Positions 20,288 through 52,007 of a DNA stretch of 64,000 nt are shown here, one piece after another. This DNA is from Halalkalibacter suaedae. GTDB lineage: Bacteria; Bacillota; Bacilli; Bacillales; Bacillaceae_D. Position 1 is the first letter of the stretch. The number at the start of each line of letters is the position of its first letter. Both the position numbers and the translations under genes were made by a program. The notes beneath the pieces were generated by a model that was not told the DNA's origin, made no database searches, and worked only from the letters and a program-made list of their open reading frames with translations. Location: positions 186,001-250,000 of the forward strand of contig NZ_JAGKSQ010000004.1 of assembly GCF_017939705.1 (NCBI RefSeq), in the 5' to 3' direction.

Positions 20288-20309
20288 AAAAGGAAATTGG
20301 TGTTAAACT
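20288..20309 (+). promoter_or_regulatory. Shared extended -10 promoter element, copy a
   Basis: AAAAGGAAATTGGTGTTAAACT: GG, seven bases, TG, one base, TAAACT. It lies about 40 bases before the DUF5412 gene. Ten such copies occur in the window. Confidence 0.6.
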
Positions 20310-20349
20310 AAATGGAGTTGTACTTTAGACTTAGGAAAGGTGGATAATT

Positions 20350-20904
20350 ATTTTAATTTTATTTGGTTTATTCATTTCTCTCTTTACGATTATCTTATTC
20401 TTAATTCTATGTGCCTACATACTACTGTCCTTCATTAAGAAAAAGCCACTTCCTAAGAAACTGATGATTGCGACGGTATCGGGAGTGTTTTTAGTGTCTT
20501 CCATTTATCTATATGAGATGTACTTTTTTACATTTAGTGAAATTGATAGAGAGTTTCTTCAAGAGGGCCCTGGATCTGTGCTATCCCCAACTGAAACATA
20601 TACAGCTAATGCTTACTATGAACTATATGGTGGGGCAGCAGGAGGCGTAAACGTATGGGTTGAAATCATCGATAATACTAAGAAAGACAACGCCAAAATT
20701 GTGTATTATAGTGATGCAAAAAGCGATTTCTCGATGGAATGGATCGACGGAAATAACCTCTATATCCTAAATGAAGAACGTGATGATCCCGCTTCGAAAA
20801 GAAGTATCAAGCTTGAAGTTGGTAAAGAAATTTACCACGAAAATGGATTGGCTTGTCAGAGTTTATTAATGAAGGATGACTATAAGACTTGCTATCAAAA
20901 CTAG
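20350..20904 (+). CDS. DUF5412-family membrane protein, probable AUU start
   Basis: The frame is open from an ATT at 20350, six bases after AGGAAAGGTGG. It encodes two membrane segments (LFISLFTIILFLILCAYILL; VSGVFLVSSIYLYEMYFF) before the DUF5412 domain (GGAAGGVNVWVEII, KIVYYSDAKSDFSMEWIDGN). The first ATG (20464) would delete the first membrane segment and has no ribosome site. No ATG, GTG or TTG exists in frame between the upstream stop and 20464, hence the AUU proposal. A paralogue lies at 42632. Function unknown. Confidence 0.65.
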   Translation: MLILFGLFISLFTIILFLILCAYILLSFIKKKPLPKKLMIATVSGVFLVSSIYLYEMYFFTFSEIDREFLQEGPGSVLSPTETYTANAYYELYGGAAGGVNVWVEIIDNTKKDNAKIVYYSDAKSDFSMEWIDGNNLYILNEERDDPASKRSIKLEVGKEIYHENGLACQSLLMKDDYKTCYQN

Positions 20905-20945
20905 CAGCGGATGAAGAAAGATCATAATCAATGATCGGAGGTTCA

Positions 20946-21173
20946 ATGATGGAAAATGAAACAGAAAAACAAATTTTAAAAGAACTAAAAAGTATGAATA
21001 AATCGTTACAGGAAATGAATAAAAAAATTGATAATATTGACAGTGACGGCAAGCCGTCGTCTCTCTTATGGGATATAAGTAAGTCTTTATTAATAGGTGT
21101 TTTCATTTTAGGTCCTGCAATAGTCGTTGTAATGTCATTGTTTCAGCTAATAGGCAGTTGGTTATTTAACTAG
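20946..21173 (+). CDS. Small coiled-coil single-pass membrane protein
   Basis: 75 residues. A charged N-terminal helix (KQILKELKSMNKSLQEMNKK) of coiled-coil character is followed by one membrane segment (LLIGVFILGPAIVVVMSLFQ) at the C-terminus. ATG 20946 follows CGGAGG. It lies 41 bases after the DUF5412 gene and probably shares its transcript. Function unknown. Confidence 0.65.
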   Translation: MMENETEKQILKELKSMNKSLQEMNKKIDNIDSDGKPSSLLWDISKSLLIGVFILGPAIVVVMSLFQLIGSWLFN

Positions 21174-21294
21174 AGGTTAAGAGCGTAGAGAGTTAAGGGA
21201 TCAATTGGAAGATATCCATGCAATCAATGATGAATGTACGATTCAATTTTCGTACTATGAGTTGTAATCGATTTAAGGGTGAAATGGACTTCAA

Positions 21295-21480
21295 AAAGGA
21301 TAAGTGGATCGTGGTTCCGTTAACGAGCTAATAATGTTGGAATATAAGACTGGAAATGGCTAATAACGGAATGAGGATCATAAACCGAGTTCTAAATTGG
21401 GAAATTAGGTGAAATAGAGGAATGAGGATCCGACAAATTAGCAAACTGGATTCTCATTCCTCTATTTATTAGCTTAATTT
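21295..21480. repeat. Four-motif TTCCGYTAA-class repeat, variant B
   Basis: GGATCGTGGTTCCGTTAAC, TAACGGAATGAGGATC, AGAGGAATGAGGATCC and GGATTCTCATTCCTC lie in a 185-base AT-rich stretch. The same GGATC-to-TTCCG spacing recurs at 57418-57600. Apart from this, the 395-base gap before the lipoprotein gene holds nothing recognised. Confidence 0.6.
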
Positions 21481-21568
21481 GAAGTAAAAGGATATATTGA
21501 AACTTTTATCGCACTAATTCGTATGTACTACTAGAAAAATAGGATGCAGCAAGGGGAAAGGGGTTCAT

Positions 21569-22006
21569 ATGATGAATAAGTGGTTGTTTTTTACTTTATT
21601 TTTTTCTGTGCTATTAATCTCGGCTTGTAGCAATAGCGACGAATTATCAGGGCACACATTTAATGTTTCGCACACTCCACCATTTCAAGAGGATATTGAT
21701 GATCCTGATAAGTATCATTCGATCATGACTTTAGAATTTTCAGATGGCAAGGTATCAAGTGCAAATAGTGGAGAGGGAACATATGAGTTGAAAGATGATG
21801 TACTCCTCTTGAATTTTGAAAATGAAAATGAACAGTTAGAAATAGAATTTACTGAGTTTAAAGAAAGTGATAAAGATTTCAGCGAATATTCTACGCTAAT
21901 AAGTCGGTCAGAGTTGAACATCACGGATCCTGATAAAGTAAGCCACTTTGGTAGTTTACATAGTAGTTTAACTAACGATATGCTAGTTGAATTTCTTCAA
22001 AAATAG
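21569..22006 (+). CDS. Small lipoprotein, unknown function
   Basis: 145 residues. MMNKWLFFTLFFSVLLISAC is a lipoprotein signal ending in the lipobox LISAC, so the mature protein is tethered to the outer face of the membrane. The remainder is acidic with beta-rich segments (GTYELKDDVLLLNFENENEQ). ATG 21569 (or 21572) follows AAGGGG. Not recognised beyond this. Confidence 0.75.
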   Translation: MMNKWLFFTLFFSVLLISACSNSDELSGHTFNVSHTPPFQEDIDDPDKYHSIMTLEFSDGKVSSANSGEGTYELKDDVLLLNFENENEQLEIEFTEFKESDKDFSEYSTLISRSELNITDPDKVSHFGSLHSSLTNDMLVEFLQK

Positions 22007-22177
22007 AAGGAAGACATCTTGTCGGATAGCTTTTCTCTTTAGAAAAAGGGGTCCATCAAAGTAAGAGGAACGAATTTCCATAAACCTCCACCCGGAGAGT
22101 GAAGCAAGTGAAGAGTTAATGTTGGTATTGAACAAGTTACTTAAGGTATCTTGTTATTTGAATGTAAAAGGTAAAGT

Positions 22178-22209
22178 AAAAAAGAAGCTGCAATAGCAGC
22201 TTCTTTTTT
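22178..22209. terminator. Bidirectional terminator
   Basis: AAGAAGCTGC and GCAGCTTCTT form a perfect stem around AATA, with A-run and T-run flanks. It can end rightward transcription from the lipoprotein and leftward transcription of the gene at 22212-22424. Confidence 0.9.
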
Positions 22210-22211
22210 GA

Positions 22212-22424
22212 TCATGTACAGCCTTCACATTCATAATAGGTGTCTTTCAAATCCAGCGTTTTGATCAAGCCCTCGACTTGAATATCCTCGAGTTCAGTAA
22301 ATTCGATATCCGCGATTCTCTCCTGAATCACCTGCCTTGCAAGCTCTTCGCTTTTTTCGGCGATGCTAAAGGTTCGCTTTGCTCCGGTCGAAAGTATCGT
22401 GTACTCAAACAAAAATCGTTTCAT
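22212..22424 (-). CDS. Small protein with C-terminal CxxC
   Basis: 70 residues read leftward from ATG 22424, six bases after GGAGT; a start at 22442 lacks a site. The N-terminus KRFLFEYTILSTGAKRTFSI and the acidic helix EELARQVIQERI resemble no family I can name. The protein ends YYECEGCT, a possible metal or redox CxxC. It reads into the shared terminator and is isolated from its neighbours. Confidence 0.6.
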   Translation of the reverse strand: MKRFLFEYTILSTGAKRTFSIAEKSEELARQVIQERIADIEFTELEDIQVEGLIKTLDLKDTYYECEGCT

Positions 22425-22533
22425 GCGGTGACTCCTTTCCATTTCTAATTGCTCCTATGATAACATACCGAAGTCTTGTCCTCTAAAATAAAGACTTTTA
22501 TTTCCTGATATGAAGTGATGAATCTTTCGATAA

Positions 22534-23415
22534 TTGATGAATGAAAAGCCAGCCAAAGTGGGTGAGGCTCATAAAAGTATGACTTCCGCTCATAAGTTAC
22601 TAGATTCCGCTCATAACATAGCGAGTTCCGCTCATAAAGTTTTGAATCCCGCTCATAACCAACAGCTGTCGTCTCTCAAACCAGCTAGATTCAAAAGGCA
22701 GGAGGTCTGCTTCTTAGCAGGAAGCTGATTAAATGGCTGGATTTTAGATAAAATTAATCATTTCTTTTAAGGACAGAGTGAATGAAAAGCCAGCCAGAGT
22801 GGGTGAGGCTCATAAAAGTATGAATTCCGCTCATAAGTTACTAGATTCGGCTCATAACATAGCGAGTTCGGCTCATGAAGTTCTGAATCTCGCTCATAAC
22901 CGAAGCTGTCGTCTCTCAAACCAGCTAGATTCAAAAGGCAGGAAGCTGATTAAATGGCTGGATTTTAGATAAAATTAATCATTTCTTTTTAAGGACAGAG
23001 TGAATGAAAAGCCAGCCAGAGTGGGTGAGGCTCATAAAAGTGTGCATTCCGCTCATAAGTTACTAGATTCGGCTCATAACATAGCGAGTTCCGCTCATAA
23101 AGTTTTGAATCCCGCTCATAACCAACAGCTGTCGTCTCTCAAACCAGCTAGATTCAAAAGGCAGGAGGTCTGCTTCTTAGCAGGAAGCTGATTAAATGGC
23201 TGGATTTTAGATAAAATTAATCATTTCTTTTAAGGACAGAGTGAATGAAAAGCCAGCCAGAGTGGGTGAGGCTCATAAAAGTGTAACTTCCGCTCATAAG
23301 TTACCAGATTCGGCTCATAACATAGCGAGTTCCGCTCATAAAGTTCAGAATCTCGCTCATAACCGAAGCTCTCGTCTCTCAAATCAGCTAGATTCAAAAG
23401 GAAGGAATCTCCGGT
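22534..23415 (+). repeat. Tandem 241/222-bp units containing 21-bp repeats
   Basis: Four units start at 22540, 22781, 23003 and 23244 (GAATGAAAAGCCAGCC). Units 1 and 3 are 241 bases and share an extra GAGGTCTGCTTCTTAGCAG; unit 2 is 222 bases and, like truncated unit 4, lacks it. The period of unit pairs is exactly 463 bases, so a dimer was duplicated. Each unit holds five GCTCATAA motifs exactly 21 bases apart (22567, 22588, 22609, 22630, 22651 in unit 1), most preceded by TTCC or TTCG. Both strands stay open, giving heptads such as SAHKLLD or YERNSLC. Expression of any peptide is unproven. Confidence 0.85.
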
Positions 23416-23663
23416 GGGTCTGTTGAAGTGTACTACTAACCCAAAAGGAGTGTAATTTAAATAAAACGATCTAAGGTGCATTTGTTGATGCATCTTTTCT
23501 TATTAAAGTGAGGAAGTAATGCATATTCATGGTAGTCAGTGCGGTGTTGAATTTTGAATAAGTACGAAAATGAAAATCAGATATCATTAGAACTTATAAT
23601 ACTTAACTCTACTCTTCAAGTGTTAATGAGAAAAATTAATCGAATTCCTTTAGGAGGTGAATC

Positions 23664-24113: not shown

Positions 24114-24236
24114 GGTTACCTATGAGAATGAATAAGTTTTTCAAATATGAGAATTTTGAATTCACATCAAGTCCCAATAGGAAAAATCGTTTCAATAAGC
24201 CATATAAACTTTTACTGAAAATTAAGGTGATGTTAA

Positions 24237-24968: not shown

Positions 24969-24992
24969 ATATATCACTTTTAAAATAAAACA

Positions 24993-26255: not shown

Positions 26256-26330
26256 GATTACATCAGCCATCTTGTTCGGTTCTTTTGTTAGCTAAATCAC
26301 TTCTGTCCCTGACTCTTTTTTGTGCTCACG

Positions 26331-26353
26331 AAAAAGGGAATTAATGTTAGTAT
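26331..26353 (+). promoter_or_regulatory. Shared extended -10 promoter element, copy b
   Basis: AAAAAGGGAATTAATGTTAG then TAT: GG, seven bases, TG, one base, TAGTAT. It lies just after CTCTTTTTT and 72 bases before the membrane protein gene at 26425. Confidence 0.65.
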
Positions 26354-26424
26354 TAAAGAAGCTATTGTCAATGAATTCTATATAGAAAATAGGACAATTA
26401 AAGTTCGATAGAGTAAGGGGTTGA

Positions 26425-27153
26425 TTGTTATTGTGGAATATTAATTTCAATATAATCGTTTTTTTAACTGAATTAATTGCTTGGGCAATAATTGGATTCA
26501 TAGCATTTCGCATTTATAGAAAATTATCGATTAAGCCGAGAATATGGAAGGTTGGACTTGTCATTTTGTTTGGGCTTTTTTCTTTTTCGATTAATTGGAC
26601 TATGTTTGATACGTTAATTCGAATTTCTATCTTACCTTTAGGTGTATGGATTTTGTATGCTGTCTTGAAAGGGAAAGAAGGAAGGTGGCAAACCTATCGC
26701 GGGTTTGCTTGGTTGGGGTTCTGGGCTAACTATATCTTTTTGGCTGCTACTTTGATAGCCTTACCTATTCATCAAGCCATCTATCCCGAAGAGAAGCCAT
26801 CAACATATATTTCAGACATTTCGAATGCTTCTATTATTAAGACCCATCCAACAGGAAATAAAATGCTATTAAACAAGGATCTTTTAATTAGTCAGCTAGA
26901 TACATTCGATCAAGATCGTATCATGAGTGACGTGTGGTATGAGGAAACCTACATGAATACAGATGATTCAAATAAGATAAATGAACGGTTTCCGTATCTA
27001 CTCACCGAAGTTAAGTCGAAATGGGGAAGTGGAATTAATAGCACAATTTATATTGAGGAGGACGGAGCAGGAATATTAATCTCTACAGCTGATAGGCAAT
27101 ATTATTTTCGTTCCGACAGCTCTGTTTTAAAGGAGGGACGTCAAAGTGAATAA
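26425..27153 (+). CDS. Membrane protein with C-terminal extracytoplasmic domain
   Basis: 242 residues, TTG 26425 (or 26431) after AAGGGG. Three or four membrane segments lead (NIIVFLTELIAWAIIGFIAF; VGLVILFGLFSFSINW; ANYIFLAATLIALPIHQAIY), then about 110 residues outside the membrane. The gene overlaps the next by eight bases, so both are translated together. No family recognised. Confidence 0.65.
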   Translation: MLLWNINFNIIVFLTELIAWAIIGFIAFRIYRKLSIKPRIWKVGLVILFGLFSFSINWTMFDTLIRISILPLGVWILYAVLKGKEGRWQTYRGFAWLGFWANYIFLAATLIALPIHQAIYPEEKPSTYISDISNASIIKTHPTGNKMLLNKDLLISQLDTFDQDRIMSDVWYEETYMNTDDSNKINERFPYLLTEVKSKWGSGINSTIYIEEDGAGILISTADRQYYFRSDSSVLKEGRQSE

Positions 27154-28349: not shown

Positions 28350-28384
28350 GTGCTGATTAAAGGAAGGTATCAGCACATTTTTTC
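28350..28384 (+). terminator. Rho-independent terminator
   Basis: GTGCTGAT pairs with ATCAGCAC around an eleven-base loop, followed by ATTTTTT. It closes the unit that starts at promoter copy b. Confidence 0.85.
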
Positions 28385-28392
28385 AGTCATTA

Positions 28393-28414
28393 AATAGGAA
28401 ATTAATGTTAAGTT
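28393..28414 (+). promoter_or_regulatory. Shared extended -10 promoter element, copy c
   Basis: AATAGGAAATTAATGTTAAG then TT: GG, seven bases, TG, one base, TAAGTT. Nine bases after the T run of the preceding terminator, and upstream of the GrpB-like gene. Confidence 0.65.
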
Positions 28415-28487
28415 ATAAGTATAGATTATTTTGGAATTTAACTTGATTTTAATTATGTTTCTAGGGAGTTAAAAAGGGGGACATTTA

Positions 28488-29012
28488 ATGCTAGGTGTCA
28501 ACAGAGGTGAGGTTGTTTTAGTCAGACATTCTGACAATTGGAAAGAGTTATTCCATAAAGAGAAGGATTTATTAGAGGTGATTATAGGGGATGAAATTAA
28601 GAGTATTCAGCATTTTGGTAGCACAGCAGTCAATGGTATTGAGGCAAAGCCTATTATTGATATCTTGATCGGTGTTGAGTCCTTAGAAGATGTTGAGGAA
28701 TTCAATAAGGAAAAATTAAGAGCGGCTGGATACTATCATTTGTCCAGAGTTCAGATAAATGGAAAAGTGGTTTTTGCTAAGTTTAGCGACCTAGTAAGCT
28801 TAACAAAGACTCATATTCTTCACGTAGTTGAGTACGAAGGTGATTGGTGGAAGAAACATATCTTGTTTAGAGATTACCTTAATGAACATCCATCGGTTGC
28901 GAAGGAATACGAAATTCTTAAGAAAAGTCTGGCAGTTAAATATCCTAATGATGAACGCTCCTATACAGATCAGAAGAAAGTATTTGTTGATAATATTTTG
29001 AGTCAAATATAA
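28488..29012 (+). CDS. GrpB-like (UPF0157) protein 1
   Basis: 174 residues. VRHSDNWKELFHKEKDLL, then IQHFGSTAVNGIEAKPIIDI and LIGVESLEDV are the hallmarks of the GrpB/UPF0157 family, a branch of the nucleotidyltransferase superfamily with GS and DxD-like residues. Biochemical activity is not settled for most members. ATG 28488 follows AAAAAGGGGG. It heads a transcription unit that runs to the terminator at 32061. A second GrpB-like gene is at 51389. Confidence 0.9.
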   Translation: MLGVNRGEVVLVRHSDNWKELFHKEKDLLEVIIGDEIKSIQHFGSTAVNGIEAKPIIDILIGVESLEDVEEFNKEKLRAAGYYHLSRVQINGKVVFAKFSDLVSLTKTHILHVVEYEGDWWKKHILFRDYLNEHPSVAKEYEILKKSLAVKYPNDERSYTDQKKVFVDNILSQI

Positions 29013-32051: not shown

Positions 32052-32060
32052 TATGAACAG

Positions 32061-32096
32061 AGCGTTCCTGCAATAAGTCAGGTACGCTTCTTTTTT
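32061..32096 (+). terminator. Rho-independent terminator
   Basis: AGCGTTCCTG pairs with CAGGTACGCT (one mismatch) and is followed by TCTTTTTT. It ends the unit 28488-32051. Confidence 0.85.
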
Positions 32097-32112
32097 GTGA
32101 ACAAACACAAAT

Positions 32113-32132
32113 AAGGTAAAAAATGTTAATAT
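32113..32132 (+). promoter_or_regulatory. Shared extended -10 promoter element, copy d
   Basis: AAGGTAAAAAATGTTAATAT: GG, seven bases, TG, one base, TAATAT. The middle is more diverged than in other copies, but the spacing is identical. Upstream of the NIPSNAP-Nudix gene. Confidence 0.55.
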
Positions 32133-32204
32133 TGAAGAAGATTATATTCCTTCTATCTGCTTAATGGAGGTAGCGGAAATTTAAAGGAAAGAAGCTGTTG
32201 AAAA

Positions 32205-32993
32205 ATGATATATAGAAGAAAAACTTATAAAATCAACCCTGAAAAACTTAATGATTTTAATAATTTCTTTCATACATACTTATATCCAAACCAGATTAAT
32301 CACGGTGCAAAGTTAATAGGTCGCTGGGTTAATGAAGAACAGAACGAGATTTTGGCAATCTGGGAATATACAAGTTTAGAACGGTATGAAAGCATAGAAA
32401 CTCAAATCAGGCTTAGTGAGCTACACAAAAAAGCACAGGAAATAAGAAAAGAGTTAGGCGACCTATACATTGAAAGCAACCAAGACTTCTTATCTTCAAC
32501 AGCGTACCCCGCTTCATATCATCCTCCTAAACAGATTGTGTCTGTTAGTGGATATATAACAAATGATGAGGGAAAGGTGCTCTTGGTTCGTAATGTCCAT
32601 CGAGCAAACACGATGGAAATGCCAGGAGGTCAAGTAGAAGAAGGTGAAACATTAGAAGAAGCAATTCATCGAGAAGTGTTAGAGGAAACAGGAGTAGTAG
32701 TTCAGTTATCTGGAATAACTGGTATTTACCAAAATGTCACGAGCGGTGTAATATGTGTTGTATTTCGTGGGCAATTTGAATCTGGTGAGATAAGATCGGC
32801 TGAAGGCGAAACGTCAGAAGTCATCTTTATAGAATTGACGAAGGAACGGATAGACCAACTAATTACGAGACCTCATTTTAGAAATAGAACACTTGATGCG
32901 ATGGTTCCAAATTATTTACCGTATGAAGCATTCAAAGTAAGGCCATACGAACTTATTACAAGGTTTGAAGTGAAAGAAGAGTTTAGTAGTTAG
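32205..32993 (+). CDS. NIPSNAP-Nudix fusion hydrolase
   Basis: 262 residues with two domains. Residues 1-95 form a NIPSNAP-type ferredoxin-like fold (MIYRRKTYKINPEKLNDFNN, GRWVNEEQNEILAIWEYTSL). Residues about 108-240 are a Nudix domain with the box GGQVEEGETLEEAIHREVLE followed by ETGV. NIPSNAP domains are usually dimerising small-molecule binders; joined to a pyrophosphohydrolase the module may present or sense the substrate. ATG 32205 follows GAAAGAAG. It heads the unit ending at the 33723 terminator. Confidence 0.85.
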   Translation: MIYRRKTYKINPEKLNDFNNFFHTYLYPNQINHGAKLIGRWVNEEQNEILAIWEYTSLERYESIETQIRLSELHKKAQEIRKELGDLYIESNQDFLSSTAYPASYHPPKQIVSVSGYITNDEGKVLLVRNVHRANTMEMPGGQVEEGETLEEAIHREVLEETGVVVQLSGITGIYQNVTSGVICVVFRGQFESGEIRSAEGETSEVIFIELTKERIDQLITRPHFRNRTLDAMVPNYLPYEAFKVRPYELITRFEVKEEFSS

Positions 32994-36721: not shown

Positions 36722-36750
36722 AGTTTTCCACCTTATTTCACGATCAAACG

Positions 36751-36790
36751 AAAGGAGCGTTTCTTTAATAAGAAGAAGTGCTTCTTTTCG
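36751..36790 (+). terminator. Rho-independent terminator of argS
   Basis: AAAGGAGC pairs with GCTTCTTT (one wobble), ending in TTTTCG. Promoter copy e starts ten bases downstream. Confidence 0.65.
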
Positions 36791-36799
36791 CATTCAATT

Positions 36800-36821
36800 A
36801 AAAGGAAAATAATGCTAAAAT
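36800..36821 (+). promoter_or_regulatory. Shared extended -10 promoter element, copy e
   Basis: AAAAGGAAAATAATGCTAAA then AT: GG, seven bases, TG, one base, TAAAAT. It lies 31 bases before the histidine phosphatase gene. Confidence 0.65.
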
Positions 36822-36852
36822 ATTGTTATTATTATTAGGAGTTGGTATCTCT

Positions 36853-37398
36853 TTGACTAATTTATATTTTGTGCGACATGCACACTCTACATATTCACCG
36901 GATGAATTAAACAGACCCTTATCAGAGAAAGGAATAACTGATGCAATTACAGTTACTAACTTATTAAAAACAAAGGGAATTGATATAGTCGTTTCAAGTC
37001 CGTATAAAAGAGCGATTCAAACAGTCGAAGGCTTAGCGAGATACATAGACAAAGAAGTTGAAATGATCGATGGTTTTAAAGAAAGAACTCTAACCATAGC
37101 TCCTGCCGAAGATTTTACACTTGCAATAAAAAGAGTATGGGAGGATTCTGATTTTTCGTGGGAAGGGGGAGAGTCGAATACTGTCGCTCAAAAAAGAGGT
37201 GTAGATACTACTTATAATCTATTAGATAAGTATAAAGGTAAAAATATAGTTATCGGTACACATGGCAATATAATGGTTCTAATTATGAATTTCTTTGACA
37301 AGCAATATGATTTTTCATTTTGGCAAAAGTTAGCTATGCCAGACATCTATAGGCTAACTTTTGAAGGTGAAATATTAACAAATGTAGAAAGAATATAG
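36853..37398 (+). CDS. Histidine phosphatase (phosphoglycerate mutase-like)
   Basis: 181 residues. LYFVRHAHSTYS is the RHG-type catalytic motif with His nucleophile, VVSSPYKRAIQT is the second signature, and GTHGNIMVLIM holds the second catalytic histidine. Family members remove phosphate from sugars, nucleotides or proteins. TTG 36853 follows AGGAG; an in-frame TTG at 36823 would place ten residues before the core and lacks a site. First gene of the unit ending at 38860. Confidence 0.9.
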   Translation: MTNLYFVRHAHSTYSPDELNRPLSEKGITDAITVTNLLKTKGIDIVVSSPYKRAIQTVEGLARYIDKEVEMIDGFKERTLTIAPAEDFTLAIKRVWEDSDFSWEGGESNTVAQKRGVDTTYNLLDKYKGKNIVIGTHGNIMVLIMNFFDKQYDFSFWQKLAMPDIYRLTFEGEILTNVERI

Positions 37399-38840: not shown

Positions 38841-38859
38841 CAATACAGTAAGCGAAGGG

Positions 38860-38886
38860 GAGCATTCTTTAGTAAAGGGTGCTCTT
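38860..38886 (+). terminator. Rho-independent terminator
   Basis: GAGCATTCTTT pairs with AAAGGGTGCTC (two wobbles) around AGT, followed by TTT. It closes the unit 36853-38840. Confidence 0.75.
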
Positions 38887-38900
38887 TAACACATTATTGC

Positions 38901-38920
38901 CAGGAAAATAATGTTAAACT
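38901..38920 (+). promoter_or_regulatory. Shared extended -10 promoter element, copy f
   Basis: CAGGAAAATAATGTTAAACT: GG, seven bases, TG, one base, TAAACT. Fifteen bases after the preceding terminator. Confidence 0.65.
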
Positions 38921-38996
38921 TAGAATTGAAAATTATTGGGGGAATTCTACTAGTCTCAGGGGAATTTACAGTAAAATGACATAGAGGAGAATGGGA

Positions 38997-39356
38997 ATGC
39001 AAAAAAAGGGACAATTAGAGGTTCTCAACCTCATTGAATTAGTAAACGATCAAAAGGACTATACTAATTTCATTGTAAGTGAAGTAAATGACCATGCACT
39101 TAGAATAGCTGTAATAGATGGAGAATTTCACTGGCATAAACACGAGGACTGCGATGAGATGTTTTTTGTATTAGAAGGTGAACTTTTCATAGACTTAGAA
39201 AACAATGAAACCGTTTCATTAAAGCCAGGTGAAATATTTACAGTGCCTAATAACACAATGCATCGAACTCGCTCAAACGAACGGACAGTTAATTTATGTT
39301 TTGAGAAAGTAAGTAATGATATAAACGGTAGCGATGAAAAAAACTTGGACAACTAA
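38997..39356 (+). CDS. Cupin-domain protein
   Basis: 119 residues from ATG 38997, eight bases past GAGGAG; an ATG at 38991 is too close. GEFHWHKHEDCDEMFFVLEG is cupin motif 1 (two His and a Glu as metal ligands), and PGEIFTVPNNTMHRTRSNER is motif 2 with the last histidine. The single-domain fold suits a small sugar-phosphate isomerase, dioxygenase or ligand sensor. It forms a one-gene unit with its own promoter and terminator. Confidence 0.9.
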   Translation: MQKKGQLEVLNLIELVNDQKDYTNFIVSEVNDHALRIAVIDGEFHWHKHEDCDEMFFVLEGELFIDLENNETVSLKPGEIFTVPNNTMHRTRSNERTVNLCFEKVSNDINGSDEKNLDN

Positions 39357-41940: not shown

Positions 41941-42088
41941 GAAAAATCCGTCCTTTACTGTTGTATTATTACTACTTAAGGCCAGTAATCACTTCTCTTA
42001 CTTAGTTCTATTCGATGCACTGTAAACCCTTCCATAGGTAAGTAGAATGTGTTCTATAATAAAACAAAGACACTTTTTTTCTCTCAAT

Positions 42089-42111
42089 AAAAAGGAAATT
42101 AATGTTAATAT
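42089..42111 (+). promoter_or_regulatory. Shared extended -10 promoter element, copy g
   Basis: AAAAAGGAAATTAATGTTAA then TAT: GG, seven bases, TG, one base, TAATAT. It follows CACTTTTTTTCTCTCAA and precedes the VOC remnant. Confidence 0.7.
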
Positions 42112-42157
42112 ATAAAAGAGTTAAATTAAACAGACTTGGATTAGGAGAAAAATTACT

Positions 42158-42631: not shown

Positions 42632-43033
42632 ATGGATTTTGATAGTGATTATAAAGTGGAAAAAAAGAAAACATATAAGAGAATAGTTAGAGTGTTACTG
42701 ATTTGGGTACTGCTTTTTATAGGGATTATAGCCTACGGAGTGTATTGGCTTTTATTTGATTGGAGCCGACTTAAAGATGAATTAATAACCCAATCGACTT
42801 CCCCAAATGGTACCTATATGATAAATGCTTATTTATCAAACGGTCATGCAACAGTTTCATATGCGGTGTTGGGGGAGTTAGTTTTTAATAATGATAATAA
42901 AAGAGCTAAGAAAATATACTGGCAACATAGAGAGGAAAATGCAAACATAGAATGGATCGATGATGATACAGTGATCATTAATAATGTGGAATTGGATTTA
43001 CCAAATGAAACGTATGATTATAGAAATGATTAA
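42632..43033 (+). CDS. DUF5412-family membrane protein
   Basis: 133 residues. One membrane segment (VLLIWVLLFIGIIAYGVYWL) and an outer domain with SPNGTYMINAYLSNGHATVS, KKIYWQHREENANIEWIDDD and TVIINNVELDLPNETYDYRN. It is a paralogue of the gene at 20350 (same YWQ/EWIDDDTV pattern) and starts at a normal ATG after GGAGGA. Function unknown. Confidence 0.8.
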   Translation: MDFDSDYKVEKKKTYKRIVRVLLIWVLLFIGIIAYGVYWLLFDWSRLKDELITQSTSPNGTYMINAYLSNGHATVSYAVLGELVFNNDNKRAKKIYWQHREENANIEWIDDDTVIINNVELDLPNETYDYRND

Positions 43034-43052
43034 ATGATTATTAATACTCGGT

Positions 43053-43086
43053 GAGCACTCCTGAAAGACAGAGGGTGCTATTTTTG
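43053..43086 (+). terminator. Rho-independent terminator
   Basis: AGCACTCCTG pairs with CAGAGGGTGCT (one bulge) around AAAGA, followed by ATTTTTG. Promoter copy h starts eight bases later. Confidence 0.75.
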
Positions 43087-43093
43087 TGTAAAT

Positions 43094-43116
43094 AAAAAGG
43101 GAATTAATGTTAAAAT
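43094..43116 (+). promoter_or_regulatory. Shared extended -10 promoter element, copy h
   Basis: AAAAAGGGAATTAATGTTAA then AAT: GG, seven bases, TG, one base, TAAAAT. One of the closest matches to the consensus. Confidence 0.7.
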
Positions 43117-43228
43117 AAAAATAGAGGATAGTGTAAGAAGAATTTACTGATTCAGTTATTTCAATTTATGATATGGGAAATTAAGGTTTTATGTAAAGGG
43201 ACAAGTATCTTGGAGGGAGGAAATTAAT

Positions 43229-43572: not shown

Positions 43573-44070
43573 ATGAATCAACTCTATATAAAGCAGAAGG
43601 TATTCAGTCTTAGTGGGAAATTTACAGTCAAGGATCAACAGGAGAATGATAAGTATTACGTGGAGGGAAGCTTCATGCAAATCCCGAAGACTTTCTCCAT
43701 TATGAATACAGCCCGAGACGAAGTAGCTCTCATTACGAAAAAGGTGTTCAGCCTCTTACCGAAATTTTTCGTTGAGGTGAATGGGCAAGAGGTACTAACG
43801 ATAAAGAAAGAATTTTCCTTCTTCAAAGCTCGTTATACAATTGATGCGGCAGGTATTGAAGTACACGGGAATTGGTGGGATATGGACTTTCAGGTTTTAC
43901 AGCAGGGTCAAATTATAGGTGAAGTCAGTAAGGAATGGTTTAGCTGGGGAGATAGCTACAAGGTTCAAATTATAGATGAAGAGATGGAAACGATTGTAAT
44001 TGCACTTGTCGTTGCAATTGATTGTGTGAAGGCAGATGAAGCAGCAGTGTCTTCATCTGCGTCGACTTAA
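43573..44070 (+). CDS. LURP-one-related (YxjI-like) protein
   Basis: 165 residues. LYIKQKVFSLSGKFTVKDQQ, YYVEGSFMQIPKTFSIMNTA and ITKKVFSLLPKFFVEV match the LURP-one/Tubby C-terminal-like family, a closed beta barrel around a central helix; bacterial members are related to phospholipid scramblase-like folds. The last ten residues are serine-rich. ATG 43573 follows TGGGAGG. The cellular role is unknown. Confidence 0.88.
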   Translation: MNQLYIKQKVFSLSGKFTVKDQQENDKYYVEGSFMQIPKTFSIMNTARDEVALITKKVFSLLPKFFVEVNGQEVLTIKKEFSFFKARYTIDAAGIEVHGNWWDMDFQVLQQGQIIGEVSKEWFSWGDSYKVQIIDEEMETIVIALVVAIDCVKADEAAVSSSAST

Positions 44071-44116
44071 GAAGAGTCAAGGCTTCTTTTAGGTATTATA
44101 CTCATACAACAGGGAG

Positions 44117-44146
44117 CGAATGTTCAATAAGGGCATTCGTTTTTTT
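44117..44146 (+). terminator. Rho-independent terminator
   Basis: CGAATG pairs with CATTCG across an eleven-base loop, followed by seven T. A diverged promoter-like AAGGTGAATAGTATATATAA follows at 44152. Confidence 0.8.
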
Positions 44147-44268
44147 CTACTAAGGTGAATAGTATATATAAATATTAAATGTTATGAGGTTCATGTTTTT
44201 CTTAATGGGGGATAAGCAATATCTGACTAATAGTAGTATAACTAATTGTCATACGAGGGGATTGTAAA

Positions 44269-46500: not shown

Positions 46501-46547
46501 CATAGAGCTAATGTAAGTATTTGAATGGTACTCGAAAGGTGACGGAT

Positions 46548-46949: not shown

Positions 46950-47017
46950 GTAGGTTAGCTTTGAAGAAAGTGTGTTTTACAGCAACTATGAAATGTATTC
47001 CTCTCATTTAGTATTGG

Positions 47018-47044
47018 CATTCCTTTTATGAGGAATGTTTTTTC
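47018..47044 (+). terminator. Rho-independent terminator
   Basis: CATTCCT pairs with AGGAATG around TTTATG, followed by TTTTTTC. Promoter copy i starts eleven bases later. Confidence 0.8.
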
Positions 47045-47054
47045 TTTGTTAGTT

Positions 47055-47076
47055 AAAAGGAAATTAATGTTAAAAT
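47055..47076 (+). promoter_or_regulatory. Shared extended -10 promoter element, copy i
   Basis: AAAAGGAAATTAATGTTAAA then AT: GG, seven bases, TG, one base, TAAAAT. It heads the longest unit in the region, ending at the 51937 terminator. Confidence 0.7.
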
Positions 47077-47132
47077 AGGTTGAGGTACGCTAATTTAATT
47101 ATTGATTTAAATAAAAGTACGAGGTGAAAATG

Positions 47133-47381: not shown

Positions 47382-48017
47382 ATGAATAAAATGAATTTGA
47401 TCTTATTTCTATTCTTTCTATCAATTGGTTTATTTGGTTGTCAGCAAAATGATGAAATAAAAGATAAGAATCCACAAAGTGATATAACTATTAATCCAGT
47501 GGGGAGCAACGCTGAAAAAGTAGTGATTGAGAATGCAGCCACAATTGAAATGCTTAAAGAGATTATTGATCATGCAGAAAAACAACCAGGTGTTGTTAAT
47601 ATGGCAGACCCTGAATTTAGAATGGCAGTTGGGGAAGAAACATATTTTCTTTGGATTGATGAAAAGTCGGGTACTATTATGAATACAAAAGATACAAATA
47701 CGATTTATTTATTACCTGCTAGTTCAGTTAATCAAATCAATGAATTAATTTCATATAATTATATGAACATTAGAGAAATGGCATGGAACTTCCTAAAAGA
47801 AAAAGGATGGAATGACCGAGCTAAGAAAGAATGGAAAAGTGCAACAGTCACGAAGGTTATCGTTAATGAAGACTATGAGTTATTAGACGAAAGTTATGAC
47901 GGCAAAGAGGTGTTCTCTGTTTCTTTTAAAGATAAAGAGAACATTGTTGCAGGTACGCCAACAGTACTTGTTGATGCTACTAAGAATACATTAATAGGCT
48001 ATATGCCAGGGGGATGA
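47382..48017 (+). CDS. Lipoprotein, unknown function
   Basis: 211 residues. NLILFLFFLSIGLFGCQQND carries the lipobox LFGC. The mature protein has two parts: VVIENAATIEMLKEIIDHAE with a beta-rich middle (YFLWIDEKSGTIMNTKDTNT), and a C-terminal region (VFSVSFKDKENIVAGTPTVL, VDATKNTLIGYMPGG). ATG 47382 follows AGAGAGG. Tethered outside the membrane. Confidence 0.75.
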   Translation: MNKMNLILFLFFLSIGLFGCQQNDEIKDKNPQSDITINPVGSNAEKVVIENAATIEMLKEIIDHAEKQPGVVNMADPEFRMAVGEETYFLWIDEKSGTIMNTKDTNTIYLLPASSVNQINELISYNYMNIREMAWNFLKEKGWNDRAKKEWKSATVTKVIVNEDYELLDESYDGKEVFSVSFKDKENIVAGTPTVLVDATKNTLIGYMPGG

Positions 48018-48121
48018 GCATTTAATAAAGTTAATGCCATTTGGATCGAGCTTTAAATTCACCATCCAGTAAAACTGGCCGACTCACTTAAATGACAAAG
48101 TATTTTAAAGGATTGATCGAA

Positions 48122-48718
48122 GTGGCAAAAAGAACCGTATTAAAATTATGCTTTGGGATACTAGTACTATTTATTGTTTTCACAATTTATTTAGCCTACA
48201 GTATTTGGAGTTTCGCTGAGGAAAACCAATTAGTGGAAACTGATGTCGCGGTAGTACTTGGTGCTGCAGCTTGGGGAGACGAACCATCTCCAGTGTTACG
48301 AGAGAGAATAAATCATTCGATTTGGCTATACGAGAATGGCTATGTAGAGAAGATAATATTTACTGGTGGCAAGGGCGTTGATGATGAATTTGCAGAATCG
48401 GAAGTAGCAAGAGATTATGCTATAAAAAACAACGTCAATTCCGATGATATTTTGATTGAAACTAAGTCAAAGATCACTGAAGAGAATCTTACATATGCAA
48501 ATGACATTATCACAGAGAATGATTTCAAAACAGTTACTATTGTAAGTGATCCATTACATATGAAAAGGGCTATTCTAATGGCAGAGAACACTGGAATAGT
48601 GGCATATTCATCACCTACACAAACGTCTGTCTATCAAACATGGAAGAGTGAAATTCCTTTCCTTTTTCGTGAGTTATTTTTCTACAGTGGTTATATTGTC
48701 AGCTTGCCATTTAGGTAA
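48122..48718 (+). CDS. YdcF/ElyC-like DUF218 membrane protein
   Basis: 198 residues if GTG 48122, nine bases after AAAGGA, is the start; ATG 48092 in frame has no ribosome site but cannot be excluded. A membrane helix (LKLCFGILVLFIVFTIYLAY) leads into DUF218: DVAVVLGAAAWGDEPSPVLR, KIIFTGGKGVDDEFAESEVA, TVTIVSDPLHMKRAILMA. Members such as ElyC and SanA act in envelope or lipid-carrier homeostasis. Confidence 0.88.
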   Translation: MAKRTVLKLCFGILVLFIVFTIYLAYSIWSFAEENQLVETDVAVVLGAAAWGDEPSPVLRERINHSIWLYENGYVEKIIFTGGKGVDDEFAESEVARDYAIKNNVNSDDILIETKSKITEENLTYANDIITENDFKTVTIVSDPLHMKRAILMAENTGIVAYSSPTQTSVYQTWKSEIPFLFRELFFYSGYIVSLPFR

Positions 48719-48754
48719 TTTTAATTAAAAAGTCAACATGGAGTGAGGTTCATT

Positions 48755-49432
48755 ATGGTCGAAGTAAAGGAATATTTAAATACTTATTTTCCGGGGTTAT
48801 GTTTAGGGGCAAGTCTCTACAATCAATGGGATACAGGCATTCACTTTGAATTAGGAGAAGGGATATACCAGATTAAAGATGATGACACTCTTAATCTTGA
48901 TAGGTTTGAGAGAGTTTATAAGCAGTCATTGTCTATTTTTAATTTTCTCTTTTCTGAACAGGACGATATTTTCCTCGTGACAAATGTCTATCATCATAAA
49001 AGTAATAAAAAAAGGATGCGCCAAACAAAGGTTTATGACCGTTTTCTCAAAAATAAAAAATTGAAATTTAATGTAAGACAGGAAACTTTGCCGTTCATTT
49101 TTGCTGATGAAGAAGAAGCAGATGGATGCTATACTTCCCGATTTTTTCTGAAGTGTAAAAAGCGGGATTTAGATTATCTCTTACTAATTAAAGCAATTTG
49201 TAATGAAGATTTCCCATTGAAACCTAAATTAGGTGGGGAGAATGGTTCATATTATCCAGATGTATTTTTTATAAATGCTTCAAAGAATATCATCTTCTTC
49301 ATTTATGATGATAGAGGGTGTGAAGTGATTTCTGATCAAATAGAAGCGTTACGCCCATTATATAACGAATATAAGAATTGGATTGCTGAGTACAACCGAG
49401 AAGAGGTCGAACAAACCTTTAAGCAGTTTTAA
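48755..49432 (+). CDS. DUF3885-family protein
   Basis: 225 residues from ATG 48755 after GAGTGAGG. The N-terminus (MVEVKEYLNTYFPGLCLGAS, WDTGIHFELG) and C-terminus (VFFINASKNIIFFIYDDRGC, LRPLYNEYKNWIAEYNRE) match DUF3885, a cytosolic family common in Bacillus and without known activity. The family is often found beside small secreted or immunity-like proteins, as here. Confidence 0.8.
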   Translation: MVEVKEYLNTYFPGLCLGASLYNQWDTGIHFELGEGIYQIKDDDTLNLDRFERVYKQSLSIFNFLFSEQDDIFLVTNVYHHKSNKKRMRQTKVYDRFLKNKKLKFNVRQETLPFIFADEEEADGCYTSRFFLKCKKRDLDYLLLIKAICNEDFPLKPKLGGENGSYYPDVFFINASKNIIFFIYDDRGCEVISDQIEALRPLYNEYKNWIAEYNREEVEQTFKQF

Positions 49433-49485
49433 GGATCTTTTTAATAGAGTTTTATTATTTCTAGATAAAAAAGGGGGGAAGAAAA

Positions 49486-50079
49486 ATGAAAAACGTATAT
49501 ATGCTACTACTATTTGCCGCATTGGCATTTGTTATAGGGGCCTGTGGTAATCACGATTCTTCAATTTCTGTTGGTGAATTAACTGAGAGAGAAAAAGCGA
49601 TACTTTCGGTTACTTCGGACAAATCATTTGTATTTGATTTCAATATAGAGAGCGAATACAAAGAACTAACTGTCTGGATGGAAAAATATAAGTCAGGGAA
49701 ATTAGTCGATGATCAATTAGGTGATATAACGTCAATGGTTGAGGAAAATGGATCTATTATTTTTGCGTTATCGAAAAATGCTGATGAAGGACAAAAAACC
49801 TATAATATTGGAATTAGTAGTGAGGGTAGGATCGCTTCAGTAAGTGGTTTAGAGGAAGATCTTAATGACCTAGAAAAAATGGCGAGTTTATGGGGCGATT
49901 TTCAAGGAAAGAGAATCTTGGACGAAGGAGAAGTCGTTTTAGCACATATTAGTTATTCTGATGCTGAGAATGGTATGAGAACACTCTCGACAGATTTTGA
50001 TGAAGATGTTGAAGGTCATATGAATGAATTGGAACAATATGATGTTACTTATTTACTTAAAGCTAAATTTATTAAGTAA
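49486..50079 (+). CDS. Lipoprotein, unknown function
   Basis: 197 residues. MLLLFAALAFVIGACGNHDS contains the lipobox VIGAC. The mature domain is beta-rich and acidic (VFDFNIESEYKELTVWMEKY, GSIIFALSKNADEGQKTYNI). ATG 49486 follows AAAAGGGGGG. It shares a unit with the lipoprotein at 50138. Not recognised further. Confidence 0.75.
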   Translation: MKNVYMLLLFAALAFVIGACGNHDSSISVGELTEREKAILSVTSDKSFVFDFNIESEYKELTVWMEKYKSGKLVDDQLGDITSMVEENGSIIFALSKNADEGQKTYNIGISSEGRIASVSGLEEDLNDLEKMASLWGDFQGKRILDEGEVVLAHISYSDAENGMRTLSTDFDEDVEGHMNELEQYDVTYLLKAKFIK

Positions 50080-50137
50080 GTTAAATTTACAATATTGCTA
50101 GTGACTATGGTATTGAGAATTAAGGAGGTGCAGATAG

Positions 50138-50656
50138 TTGAGGAAAATATGGATGTTAGTTGTCTTGTCATTTTTATTTTTGACTGTTAATGCTTGTATT
50201 AATTCTCAAGACCCAAAAATCACGGTTGAAGCAGTCGTTTCACACTTAAGTGATGAAGAGTTTGACGAGGTGGGGTTACACGGGTTAGAAGATCCTTCAA
50301 AAGATGGTTCTCGTAAATTTACTATTGATTTTGAAGTCGAACACTCTTCAACAATTACGAGTAAGGTAGAATTCCCTAGAAATGGGAGTTGGCAAGAGGC
50401 TATTAATAGTATAGATAGTAATAGGGATAGATATTGGTTTGGTGAAGGTTATGAACAAAATAATGATGATGCAAACGTAGCAAGATATTATCGAGAATTT
50501 GTTTTTTACTCTAAAGGCTTGGATAAACAAGAAATTAGTGAGGCTTTTAATTCGATTATTATTGATCTTTATTTGGACAAAGAAGAAGGAGATAGTATCG
50601 AGAAAGAATATAAAGTTAGTGATCTAGTTGAATTTGATGAAAATAAAACTTCTTAA
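50138..50656 (+). CDS. Lipoprotein, unknown function
   Basis: 172 residues from TTG 50138 after TAAGGAGGTGC. MLVVLSFLFLTVNACINSQD holds a lipobox-like TVNAC. The mature protein is acidic (VSHLSDEEFDEVGLHGLEDP, YWFGEGYEQNNDDANVARYY). No family known. Confidence 0.7.
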   Translation: MRKIWMLVVLSFLFLTVNACINSQDPKITVEAVVSHLSDEEFDEVGLHGLEDPSKDGSRKFTIDFEVEHSSTITSKVEFPRNGSWQEAINSIDSNRDRYWFGEGYEQNNDDANVARYYREFVFYSKGLDKQEISEAFNSIIIDLYLDKEEGDSIEKEYKVSDLVEFDENKTS

Positions 50657-50718
50657 AGCAACGGATAGCAATCTAAAGAAGAGAGATTGTTTTTCTTATA
50701 TAGAAAGGAGAAATTATA

Positions 50719-51327
50719 TTGGGTTCAAGGATCATGCATTTAATTATTGCAAATAGAATTGCAGATGAATTAGCAATACAAGATAGAACATCCTTTCTTT
50801 TAGGCGGCATTGCAGCGGATGCGGTTTCATCTAAAGAAGTATCACATTTTTTCAAAGGCGACGTGAATGATTATTCTCGATATATTGACCACGATGATTT
50901 CATACATAAATATAGCTTCCATAAGAATTCTCACTATGTATTAGGATACTATACTCATTTGATTGCGGACGATATTTGGTTAAAAGGCTTTTACTTGCCT
51001 TGGTTAAAAAACCGAATCGATGCGGATAAAACCATGCTCAAACAATACCATAATGATTTTCGATTACTTAATGCAAAGATATTAGATTATTATGGCTTCA
51101 AAGAGCAATTAAGTAAAGGATTGCACAAAACTGGGTCAATTATTGAAACAGACGAGGTCAAGCCTAGCGAAGTGGAGGAATTTGTCTCATATGTAATTAG
51201 AGATATGGATTATGATAGGGAAGACCTTGAACAGCCACTAAATGTGTTCACACTTCAACAAATTATTGGATATATTGAGACTTCCGTTGATAAAGGCTTG
51301 ATCTGTATCAGTTCTTTAAAGGGGTGA
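50719..51327 (+). CDS. Zinc-dependent phospholipase C-like hydrolase
   Basis: 202 residues from TTG 50719 after GAAAGGAG. GSRIMHLIIANRIADELAI, LLGGIAADAVSSKEVSHFF and HYVLGYYTHLIADDIW display the His/Asp spacing of the zinc-dependent phospholipase C-like family. No signal peptide, so this is likely a cytosolic metallohydrolase. Substrate unknown. Confidence 0.78.
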   Translation: MGSRIMHLIIANRIADELAIQDRTSFLLGGIAADAVSSKEVSHFFKGDVNDYSRYIDHDDFIHKYSFHKNSHYVLGYYTHLIADDIWLKGFYLPWLKNRIDADKTMLKQYHNDFRLLNAKILDYYGFKEQLSKGLHKTGSIIETDEVKPSEVEEFVSYVIRDMDYDREDLEQPLNVFTLQQIIGYIETSVDKGLICISSLKG

Positions 51328-51388
51328 GATCTGATAGCTTTGTGCAGCACTAGTGCTTAAGTTAAAAACTTGTAAGTGAGGAAATGCT

Positions 51389-51904
51389 ATGAGAAAAACC
51401 AATATAGTTCCTTGGACTAAAGAGTGGGATATCGTATATAAGCAAGAAGAGACAATACTCAAAGAATTATTTAAAGATGAATTGATTTATATCTTTCATA
51501 TTGGGAGTACGTCCGTTCAAGCAATAGGTTATGCAAAACCAATAATAGATATATTAGTTGTCGTGAAAGAGATTGAAAACGTTGATTTGTATAATGAAGA
51601 ATTACGAAAAATAGGGTATGAACCAAAAGGGGAGTATGGAATACCTGGTAGAAGGTACTTTCCTAAAGGAAAAGAAAATCGAACCCATCATGTACATATC
51701 TTTCAAGTAGGCAATGAACATATTAACGCACATTTAGATTTCAAGGAATATCTAATTAAACACCCAGAGGATGCTAAAAGATACGGAGATTTAAAATTAA
51801 AATTAGCAAAACAGTTTCCAGATAATCATTATAAGTATCAAATGGAAAAACAGGGGTTTGTTAATGAGTTAGTGGAGAAGGCAAAAAGTTGGGCACTGCA
51901 ATAA
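51389..51904 (+). CDS. GrpB-like (UPF0157) protein 2
   Basis: 171 residues. VPWTKEWDIVYKQEETIL, FHIGSTSVQAIGYAKPIIDI and HVHIFQVGNEHINAHLDFKE are the family pattern; GST plus the acidic residues form the nucleotidyltransferase-like site. It is diverged from the copy at 28488, so this is not a recent duplication. ATG 51389 follows GAGGAAA. Last gene of the unit from promoter copy i. Confidence 0.9.
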   Translation: MRKTNIVPWTKEWDIVYKQEETILKELFKDELIYIFHIGSTSVQAIGYAKPIIDILVVVKEIENVDLYNEELRKIGYEPKGEYGIPGRRYFPKGKENRTHHVHIFQVGNEHINAHLDFKEYLIKHPEDAKRYGDLKLKLAKQFPDNHYKYQMEKQGFVNELVEKAKSWALQ

Positions 51905-51936
51905 AACTCGAACAGGTTAATAAAAAGCCGGTTTTT

Positions 51937-51977
51937 GGTACCTCTACCTTTCAATAGAGAGTACCTTTTTTTGTTTA
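51937..51977 (+). terminator. Rho-independent terminator
   Basis: GGTACCTCT pairs with AGAGAGTACC (one bulge), followed by seven T. Promoter copy j follows. Confidence 0.8.
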
Positions 51978-51983
51978 TAGTTA

Positions 51984-52007
51984 TAAAAAGGAAATTTGTG
52001 TTAAAAT
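51984..52007 (+). promoter_or_regulatory. Shared extended -10 promoter element, copy j
   Basis: TAAAAAGGAAATTTGTGTTA then AAAT: GG, seven bases, TG, one base, TAAAAT. Sixty bases before the serine hydrolase start. Confidence 0.65.

Follow-up and report, generated by a model that had tools for sequence, protein, structure and literature searches.

Promoter repeats of Halalkalibacter suaedae as probable relics of regulatory mini-cassettes in an integron-like system of Bacillales

Integrons are the textbook gene-capture system, and the dif modules of Acinetobacter plasmids make use of the host's XerCD and have sites whose orientation alternates. According to the IntegronFinder 2.0 paper, the Firmicutes hold one complete integron (Limnochorda pilosa) and a few clusters of attC sites lacking integron-integrases (CALIN), and IntI is distinguished by an extra domain (PMC9024848); an account of simple tyrosine recombinases includes an integron-like subgroup in which the insertion is not fully conserved (PMC8138268), and the dif modules are described as a feature of one genus (PMC6449649). 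Here we analyze a 64,000-nucleotide stretch of Halalkalibacter suaedae (positions 186,001 to 250,000 of contig NZ_JAGKSQ010000004.1, our C25; hereafter the window, with positions counted from its first letter) which carries ten copies of a promoter-bearing repeat. We consider it highly probable that these repeats are relics of regulatory mini-cassettes in an integron-like gene-cassette system of Bacillales. A literature search, with preprints and most subscription papers outside its scope, returned no description of such a system.

The sequence-only reading had listed ten AAGG-type elements, all on the plus strand, and had judged them to be beyond chance, and on both counts it was right. The motifs start at 20290, 26334, 28395, 32113, 36802, 38901, 42092, 43097, 47057 and 51988, within 0 to 4 bp of where they had been placed, and the loose pattern has no minus-strand match in the window; an eleventh match to it at 26415-26434 lacks the consensus core and looks like chance. 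Genome-wide the loose pattern is weak (106 matches vs. 64 for the pattern read backwards), and the consensus AAGGAAATTAATGTTAAAAT with up to three mismatches gives 53 matches in the whole genome against 5 in the control. A hidden Markov model (HMM) for which 131 of the 167 aligned copies were used, after removal of all C25 and C1 rows of the H. suaedae genome (the alignment columns having been chosen while these rows were still included), recovers all ten window copies with expectation values (E) of 1.4e-12 to 2.6e-3, the next match standing at 0.11. The copies extend beyond the window: 33 of the 53 genome matches lie on C25 (all plus), 6 on C1 (all minus) and 14 elsewhere.

The wider arrays to which we compare the window are punctuated by a recombination site, a near-palindrome TTnTTnAACTAAC-GGGnGC-nTTnnTTnAAnAAG, for which an iterated HMM gives the consensus TTnTtnTTnAAcTAAcGGGnGCntTncTtnAAnAAGgnn with two arms of ~14 bp and a 6(-7)-bp center. 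Over eleven array stretches, the same ones on which it was trained, this site HMM has 342 matches along the array direction, 14 opposite, some of them the palindrome read back, and 0 in the reversed-sequence control; over 83 sequences the counts are 529 and 12. A longer left arm is frequent, starting with TTGTGA and ending with AAAGTAAC, with constant length in 51 of 53 matches and 4 matches on the other strand. With 109 sites, a stretch of genome G022 is the richest of all, and locus L184, with an integrase of 67% identity, has similar arms around the centers TGATGC/GCATGC. This last record (CP053689.1), labeled Arthrobacter citreus NEB 577, has such an array plus integrase, and the organism label looks doubtful. 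Two other interpretations of the motif were set aside along the way: a likeness to the XerD arm of dif or to the integron core GTTRRRY within GTTAAAC was dropped, the site being arms around GGGnGC, and "A+B" junctions, once viewed as a single composite attC, are taken to be independent mini-cassettes, since the same cassette ends join different partners.

The full repeat unit of ~61-107 bp is a hairpin terminator followed by a single promoter (AAGGAAATTAATGTTAAA[A/C]T). Aligned over 167 nonredundant copies it reads approximately TTAAACTAACGGGnGCATTCCTTCAACAAGGGATGCTTTTTCTATGTCAATAAAAGGAAATTAATGTTAAA[AC]TAAAGGGGCAG, with a recombination-site half, then a hairpin with its T run, and the promoter last; because at least 104 loci (L021-L124) were fetched by the exact motif, the invariance of the motif within this set is inflated. 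The sequence TGTTAAA[A/C]T matches a sigma-A extended -10 (TGn plus TAnnnT) and is a predicted, presumably active promoter, which selection may have kept. The claim that it lacks a -35 box needs correcting: in the 167 related copies, [AT]TGTCA shows weak conservation at a distance of 19 bp before the -10 hexamer, making it a poor -35-like hexamer at a spacing outside the usual range. For the conserved AAGG...TAA stretch, shared descent from one cassette promoter is the best explanation, and in the common 61-71 bp form the last bases of this stretch additionally supply the site's left arm.

Unit sizes, like the counts over 83 sequences and the pairwise and boundary comparisons below, were taken after 32 of the at least 104 fetched loci had been dropped because they overlap longer stretches. 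A recognized next start within 125 bp follows 90 of the 415 site starts, and the units so delimited fall into classes of 45-51 bp (32 units, none with the motif and, by eye, hairpin only), 61-71 bp (38 units, 36 with the motif, where TTAAACTAA also serves as the next arm) and 85-107 bp (12 units, seven with the motif, the arm being separate from the -10), with 8 units of other sizes; in the 61-71 bp class, 17 of the 38 belong to arrays that were obtained otherwise than through the exact motif.

Among the matches listed, exact copies of the motif come from Halalkalibacter, B. solitudinis, Alkalihalophilus (also plasmids pBpOF4-01 and -02), Jeotgalibacillus, Metabacillus, Robertmurraya and others. 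With up to two mismatches it is present in 32 of 60 genomes, H. suaedae included, and 19 of the 60 have three or more matches, single matches per genome being at control level. Its direction is nearly uniform within each stretch: the repeat HMM (E < 0.1) gives plus/minus counts of 38/0 on C25 and 1/45 in G022, and those for four B. solitudinis stretches are 36/0, 1/13, 0/8 and 2/0. The 4.62-Mb B. solitudinis scaffold has dnaA at 2.02 Mb and, at 4.51 Mb, a dif-like site (three mismatches), so that, if the scaffold closes on itself, the main arrays are found ~0.2-0.6 Mb to either side of the terminus with 59 of 60 repeats along replication. Open reading frames (ORFs) run in array direction in 394 of 466 cases near sites vs. 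521 of 689 away from them, and site direction is therefore stricter than gene direction.

These observations bear directly on whether the copies form one regulon, as had been suggested alongside a cassette-type promoter. A regulon, in which a conserved operator or special promoter (a regulator or sigma-factor target AAGGAAATTAA) is selected before unrelated accessory genes, would account for a promoter core conserved beyond the needs of sigma-A, in a set partly fetched by that core, and for the 10 of 15 copies outside the fetched arrays that by HMM coverage are a promoter part alone, several of them before genes; the match spans the terminator in the other 5, and one of the ten (L227) looks by eye like coding sequence. 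Against it, array copies are preceded by a terminator and share one orientation (38 to 0 on C25), the units have discrete sizes and end at recombination sites, and one and the same gene cassette has a promoter unit in front in one copy and none in the other. With 39 of the 53 genome copies on two contigs, all in array direction, and with array copies following cassette sites and not a common function, we reject the regulon on clustering, direction and unit boundaries and rate it as very improbable, whereas the cassette-type promoter survives in a more specific form, as part of a mobile mini-cassette that is also found beside the cassette integrase. Dispersed non-autonomous repeats that happen to bear a promoter, of the miniature inverted-repeat transposable element or repetitive extragenic palindromic kind, would likewise be short, numerous and hairpin-forming, but whole gene units have the same kind of ends as these units, and, though no search was aimed at terminal inverted repeats or target duplications, we give that explanation next to no credence.

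Evidence for exchange of the cassettes comes from comparing all array sequences pairwise, which yielded 254 pairs at ≥88% identity. Across all pairs, unique alignment ends fall near a site in 51 of 384 cases on the 5' side and 67 of 373 on the 3' side, vs. 6.2 and 5.6 for shuffled sites. Fifty-eight of the pairs were then removed because they carry IS110-like elements, whose ends also fall near sites; in the remainder, 46 of 313 (5') and 65 of 315 (3') unique ends lie within 20 bp of a site, vs. shuffled means of 4.8 and 4.6 (maxima 13 and 11). At the 5' boundaries at sites (27 pairs) the whole left arm shows only background identity, with values of 0.70-1.00 reached at +3 and beyond. The 3' boundaries (46 pairs) show 0.76-0.91 between -20 and -2, falling to near background by +6, and keeping the IS110 pairs leaves the picture unchanged. 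The variable left-arm positions -14, -11 and -8 illustrate the switch, with identities of 0.26, 0.22 and 0.26, i.e., background, at 5' ends vs. 0.76-0.80 at 3' ends. Partners thus change in or beside the 6-bp center, left arms staying with the upstream units and right arms with the downstream ones.

Individual cassettes are found in different surroundings. In B. solitudinis a ~1.04-kb cassette stands at three places on both replichores with 99% identity, and in G022 a 1.6-kb block is present twice (97.9%). Robertmurraya and A. marmarensis share a cassette (89.5%) whose end meets a gene start in the former and a terminator start in the latter. Plasmids of A. pseudofirmus OF4 and DSM 8715 have in common a site-bounded GrpB cassette (98.5%) with different cassettes beside it: the next stretch that the two share is an IS110 element, reached after 1411 bp in OF4 (GNAT, methyltransferase and hypothetical genes) and after 715 bp in DSM 8715 (a transglutaminase-family gene). 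A search for cassettes present or missing between colinear loci gave 18 candidate events, two with sites at their ends.

Homologous recombination between short common repeats, for example after natural transformation and with no dedicated recombinase, could yield similar changes in gene order, junction repeats being common along the arrays. It fits poorly with a switch of partners in or beside the 6-bp center, as the values at -14, -11 and -8 place it, with a shared site of only ~35 bp, and with a tyrosine recombinase at such sites in several genera; we hold this route to be very unlikely.

We count 35 IS110-like pieces in 10 of the 83 sequences (S16a, S16b, S22a, pBpOF4-01 and others), 12 of which have a cassette site within ~400 bp, and several IS110-length alignments begin 11-31 bp past a promoter copy. 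Certain IS1111-type elements target attC, and by analogy some IS110-like elements may target the cassette site.

Genes of the tyrosine recombinase family PF00589 are found inside the arrays and opposite to their direction, at G016:C1:4095099-4095581 (140.8 bits; cut-off 27.1) and, in H. suaedae, at G000:C25:269064-269545 (104.4 bits). The H. suaedae copy, 19 kb right of the window, lies in two frames and appears to be frameshifted or misassembled. The integrase has ~280 amino acids (aa), with the recombinase residues R, K, HxxR, H and Y visible by eye, and is 92.6-100% identical across five genomes (loci L166-L170: G016, G012, G026, G023 and H. suaedae). At these loci the motif begins 77-82 bp from the start codon of the divergent integrase and faces the array, and a site upstream of the integrase is recognized at E ≤ 0.1 in four of the five. 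Extending this threshold to 42 integrase loci, at least one site is present at 21; 14 loci have one upstream and 14 have one on the 3' side, 7 of them having both, and sites flanking on both sides mean that in a number of genomes the integrase sits in a cassette of its own. The anatomy of the repeat, the sites and their direction, the cassette boundaries and the placement of the integrase are read directly from the sequences; that this integrase performs the exchange, and the manner in which cassettes travel, are inferred. Within the family the recombinase is present in 12 of 41 genomes (E ≤ 1e-60), and 8 plasmid records have it at E ≤ 1e-50; across the order, 65 of 397 genomes, in 34 of 135 genera, have a relative at E ≤ 1e-100. 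Further relatives of 52-56% identity (L178, L180 and L173) stand beside a similar small gene with no such sites, apparently another use of the same recombinase group.

By NCBIfam models the integrase scores below every cut-off, with 216.7 bits for XerA (cut-off 220), 201 for XerD (330), 200.5 for XerC (335) and 99.7 for the integron integrase TIGR02249 (265). Its best solved-structure match is XerD 1a0p (112 bits), and together with the XerA score and a similar length this likens it to XerC, XerD and XerA, from which it differs in falling short of their curated cut-offs. Two higher-scoring PF00589 genes of 296-306 aa, presumably XerC and XerD, are encoded elsewhere in each of G000, G016 and G022. 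The IntI-specific segment is missing: residues 172-196 of the query lie opposite 170-237 of IntI4 (2a3v), ~43 aa fewer.

The cassettes themselves have accessory content. The 112 ORFs that come first after a site include 16 GNAT (the main family), 6 NUDIX, 3 each of VanZ, APH, glyoxalase and sigma-70 region 2, and 2 each of GrpB and histidine phosphatase, and PADLOC assigns members of this set to nine families of 1-4 members each. Integron cassettes are likewise rich in GNAT, NUDIX, glyoxalase and APH. The ten window ORFs are similar in kind: two DUF5412, GrpB, NIPSNAP-NUDIX, histidine phosphatase, cupin, LURP-one-like and serine hydrolase genes, plus two unmatched.

Could this, then, be a true but divergent integron, with an integrase of the IntI clade and attC sites? 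The likeness lies in the content just described, in long one-way arrays (342 vs. 14 sites) of mostly single accessory genes, and in a recombinase gene divergent to the array and adjoining a site, with an outward promoter-like sequence that would face the cassettes. Integron core boxes, moreover, have arms that end in AAC and begin with GTT, as do the cassette-site arms. The differences are the following. The recombinase is Xer-like, without counterpart to ~43 aa of IntI4 and far below the integron-integrase cut-off; the sites are near-palindromes with 14-bp arms whose consensus AACTAAC/GTTAGTT misfits the attC core RYYYAAC...GTTRRRY in a comparison of consensus sequences; the integrase often stands between two sites within the array, in the manner of a cassette; and there are separate terminator and terminator+promoter mini-cassettes that shuffle separately. 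The hosts, finally, are Bacillales, members of a phylum which the integron survey gives as almost without integrons (PMC9024848). We judge a divergent integron to be improbable.

The dif modules resemble our arrays in having accessory genes between short Xer-type sites and presumed site-specific movement (PMC6449649). Here, in contrast, nearly all sites point one way, there are ~100 per stretch in two chromosomes, and a recombinase gene stands at the sites. With a Bacillus dif pattern (≤3 mismatches) we find one dif-like sequence each in G012, G016 and G022 and none in G000; by eye their arms differ from those of the cassette site, which does not match the host dif. Bearing on the possibility that only host XerC/XerD are used, the recombinase gene is at the sites in many genomes, yet several array genomes are without it at E ≤ 1e-60.

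In light of these comparisons, we propose that a Xer-like tyrosine recombinase recognizes TTnTTnAACTAAC-GGGnGC-nTTnnTTnAAnAAG and would swap DNA within the 6-bp center, such that each upstream cassette keeps the left arm at its end and each downstream cassette the right arm at its start. The arrays would be composed of three kinds of units: gene cassettes, mostly of a single gene and ~0.3-1.5 kb long; mini-cassettes of ~45-51 bp with a terminator; and mini-cassettes with terminator plus promoter, which measure ~61-71 bp, or ~85-107 bp if the arm is separate from the -10. The motif promoter between the integrase and its adjoining site would face the array like the Pc of integrons. In H. suaedae, where the integrase appears frameshifted or misassembled, the window represents a part of the array that no longer has recognizable sites, its terminators and promoters persisting, we suggest, because they still drive captured genes. 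Such a system would work like an integron without being a member by the tests made, and there is a fair chance that it deserves the name of a separate gene-capture system. We further lean toward viewing it as a second gene-capture platform of Bacillales, independently evolved and apart from integrons, with a Xer-derived integrase riding in a cassette, palindromic sites and mobile terminator and terminator+promoter mini-cassettes, so that recombination along the array would set the expression of captured genes, and with super-arrays of ~100 sites near the replication terminus. If true, a parallel system with such a spread of recombinase relatives through the order would contribute to an explanation of how bacilli acquire their accessory genes. 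It would also be an example from nature in which promoters and terminators are shuffled as cassettes in their own right, and it opens concrete questions on the bases exchanged, the use of single strands, and the passage of cassettes across genera and plasmids.

It is important to note that several results weigh against this proposal. Some 80-85% of alignment ends lie away from any detected site, and only near-site ends enter the boundary profile, which consequently locates the switch and is not independent proof of it. The 3' switch is also blunter than the 5' one, with identities of 0.59-0.67 at +2 to +5 and a small excess to ~+10. The fraction of site starts with a recognized successor is low (90 of 415), as is that of outside copies with a terminator. 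As to the enzyme, a forward site at E ≤ 0.1 is lacking both upstream and on the 3' side at 21 of the 42 integrase loci, and no integrase is detected at E ≤ 1e-60, fragments and other recombinases not being traced, in the 109-site genome G022 or in G001, G002, G006, G008, G010, G017 and G029, each of these seven with at least three motif copies. In the window itself the best cassette-site match reaches only E 0.013 (att HMM, at 36748, just upstream of copy 5), and its membership in the array is therefore drawn from the terminator-promoter unit and the contig.

The window lies left of the C25 integrase, and on this contig the site HMM recognizes 16 sites right of the integrase and none left. We read the window as an old part of the array, whose arms would have drifted while terminators and promoters were kept, in a genome whose integrase may be broken. 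The proposed T run upstream of the copies is clear by eye in seven, whereas 36802 and 38901 have a short one and 20290 has none; behind 42092 and 43097 the Pfam-matching ORF begins only 540 and 476 bp downstream.

All ten relic units are on the plus strand. Unit 5 (36748..36824; motif 36802-36821; HMM E 4.6e-9) combines a half site, terminator and promoter ahead of a histidine phosphatase ORF (36823-37398), and its att-like half site at 36748-36773, -54 from the motif, is the best preserved of the ten. Unit 4 (32059..32139; motif 32113-32132; E 3.3e-5) has an eroded site half, with a weak att-like match at 32060 (E 0.26), before its terminator and promoter and a NIPSNAP-NUDIX ORF (32205-32993). 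Terminator and promoter are recognizable in unit 6 (38850..38925; CAGG-variant motif 38901-38920; E 1.6e-7), with a hairpin and short T run before a cupin ORF (38991-39356); in unit 8 (43051..43125; motif 43097-43116; E 5.9e-10), with a hairpin before a LURP-one/scramblase-like ORF (43573-44070); in unit 9 (47016..47078; motif 47057-47076; E 1.4e-12), where the hairpin GGCATTCC..GGAATG and a T run precede an exact consensus promoter and an ORF with no Pfam match (47382-48017); and in unit 10 (51948..52010; motif 51988-52007; E 4.6e-4), upstream of a beta-lactamase-fold serine hydrolase (52067-53092). A T run plus promoter make up unit 2 (26312..26361; motif 26334-26353; E 1.1e-5), followed by an ORF with no Pfam match (26425-27153), unit 3 (28374..28419; TAGG-variant motif 28395-28414; E 2e-4), followed by GrpB (28488-29012), and unit 7 (42069..42118; motif 42092-42111; E 1.5e-7), followed by DUF5412 (42632-43033). 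Unit 1 (20283..20318; motif 20290-20309; E 2.6e-3) has no clear terminator and precedes another DUF5412 ORF (20464-20904, by Pfam); the annotation of the plasmid region of A. pseudofirmus DSM 8715 (L212) includes a DUF5412 gene as well.

Two weaker elements in the window have no promoter: a solitary terminator/att-like element at 44102-44151 (repeat HMM E 0.26, att HMM E 0.14), possibly a terminator-only relic, and a terminator-half match at 57380-57413 (repeat HMM E 0.11). Other repeats were observed as well. An overlapping direct repeat of ~630 bp with 89% identity and an offset of ~241 bp occupies 22538-23406 (C25 208538-209166 and 208779-209406), and 14201-17265 resembles C25 116763-119831 at 74% over 3 kb, possibly reflecting paralogous genes. 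In the fetched stretches of C25 a strand-specific repeat around GAAGATCCAGGAACAGAA recurs 12- to 15-fold and is perhaps a coding repeat.

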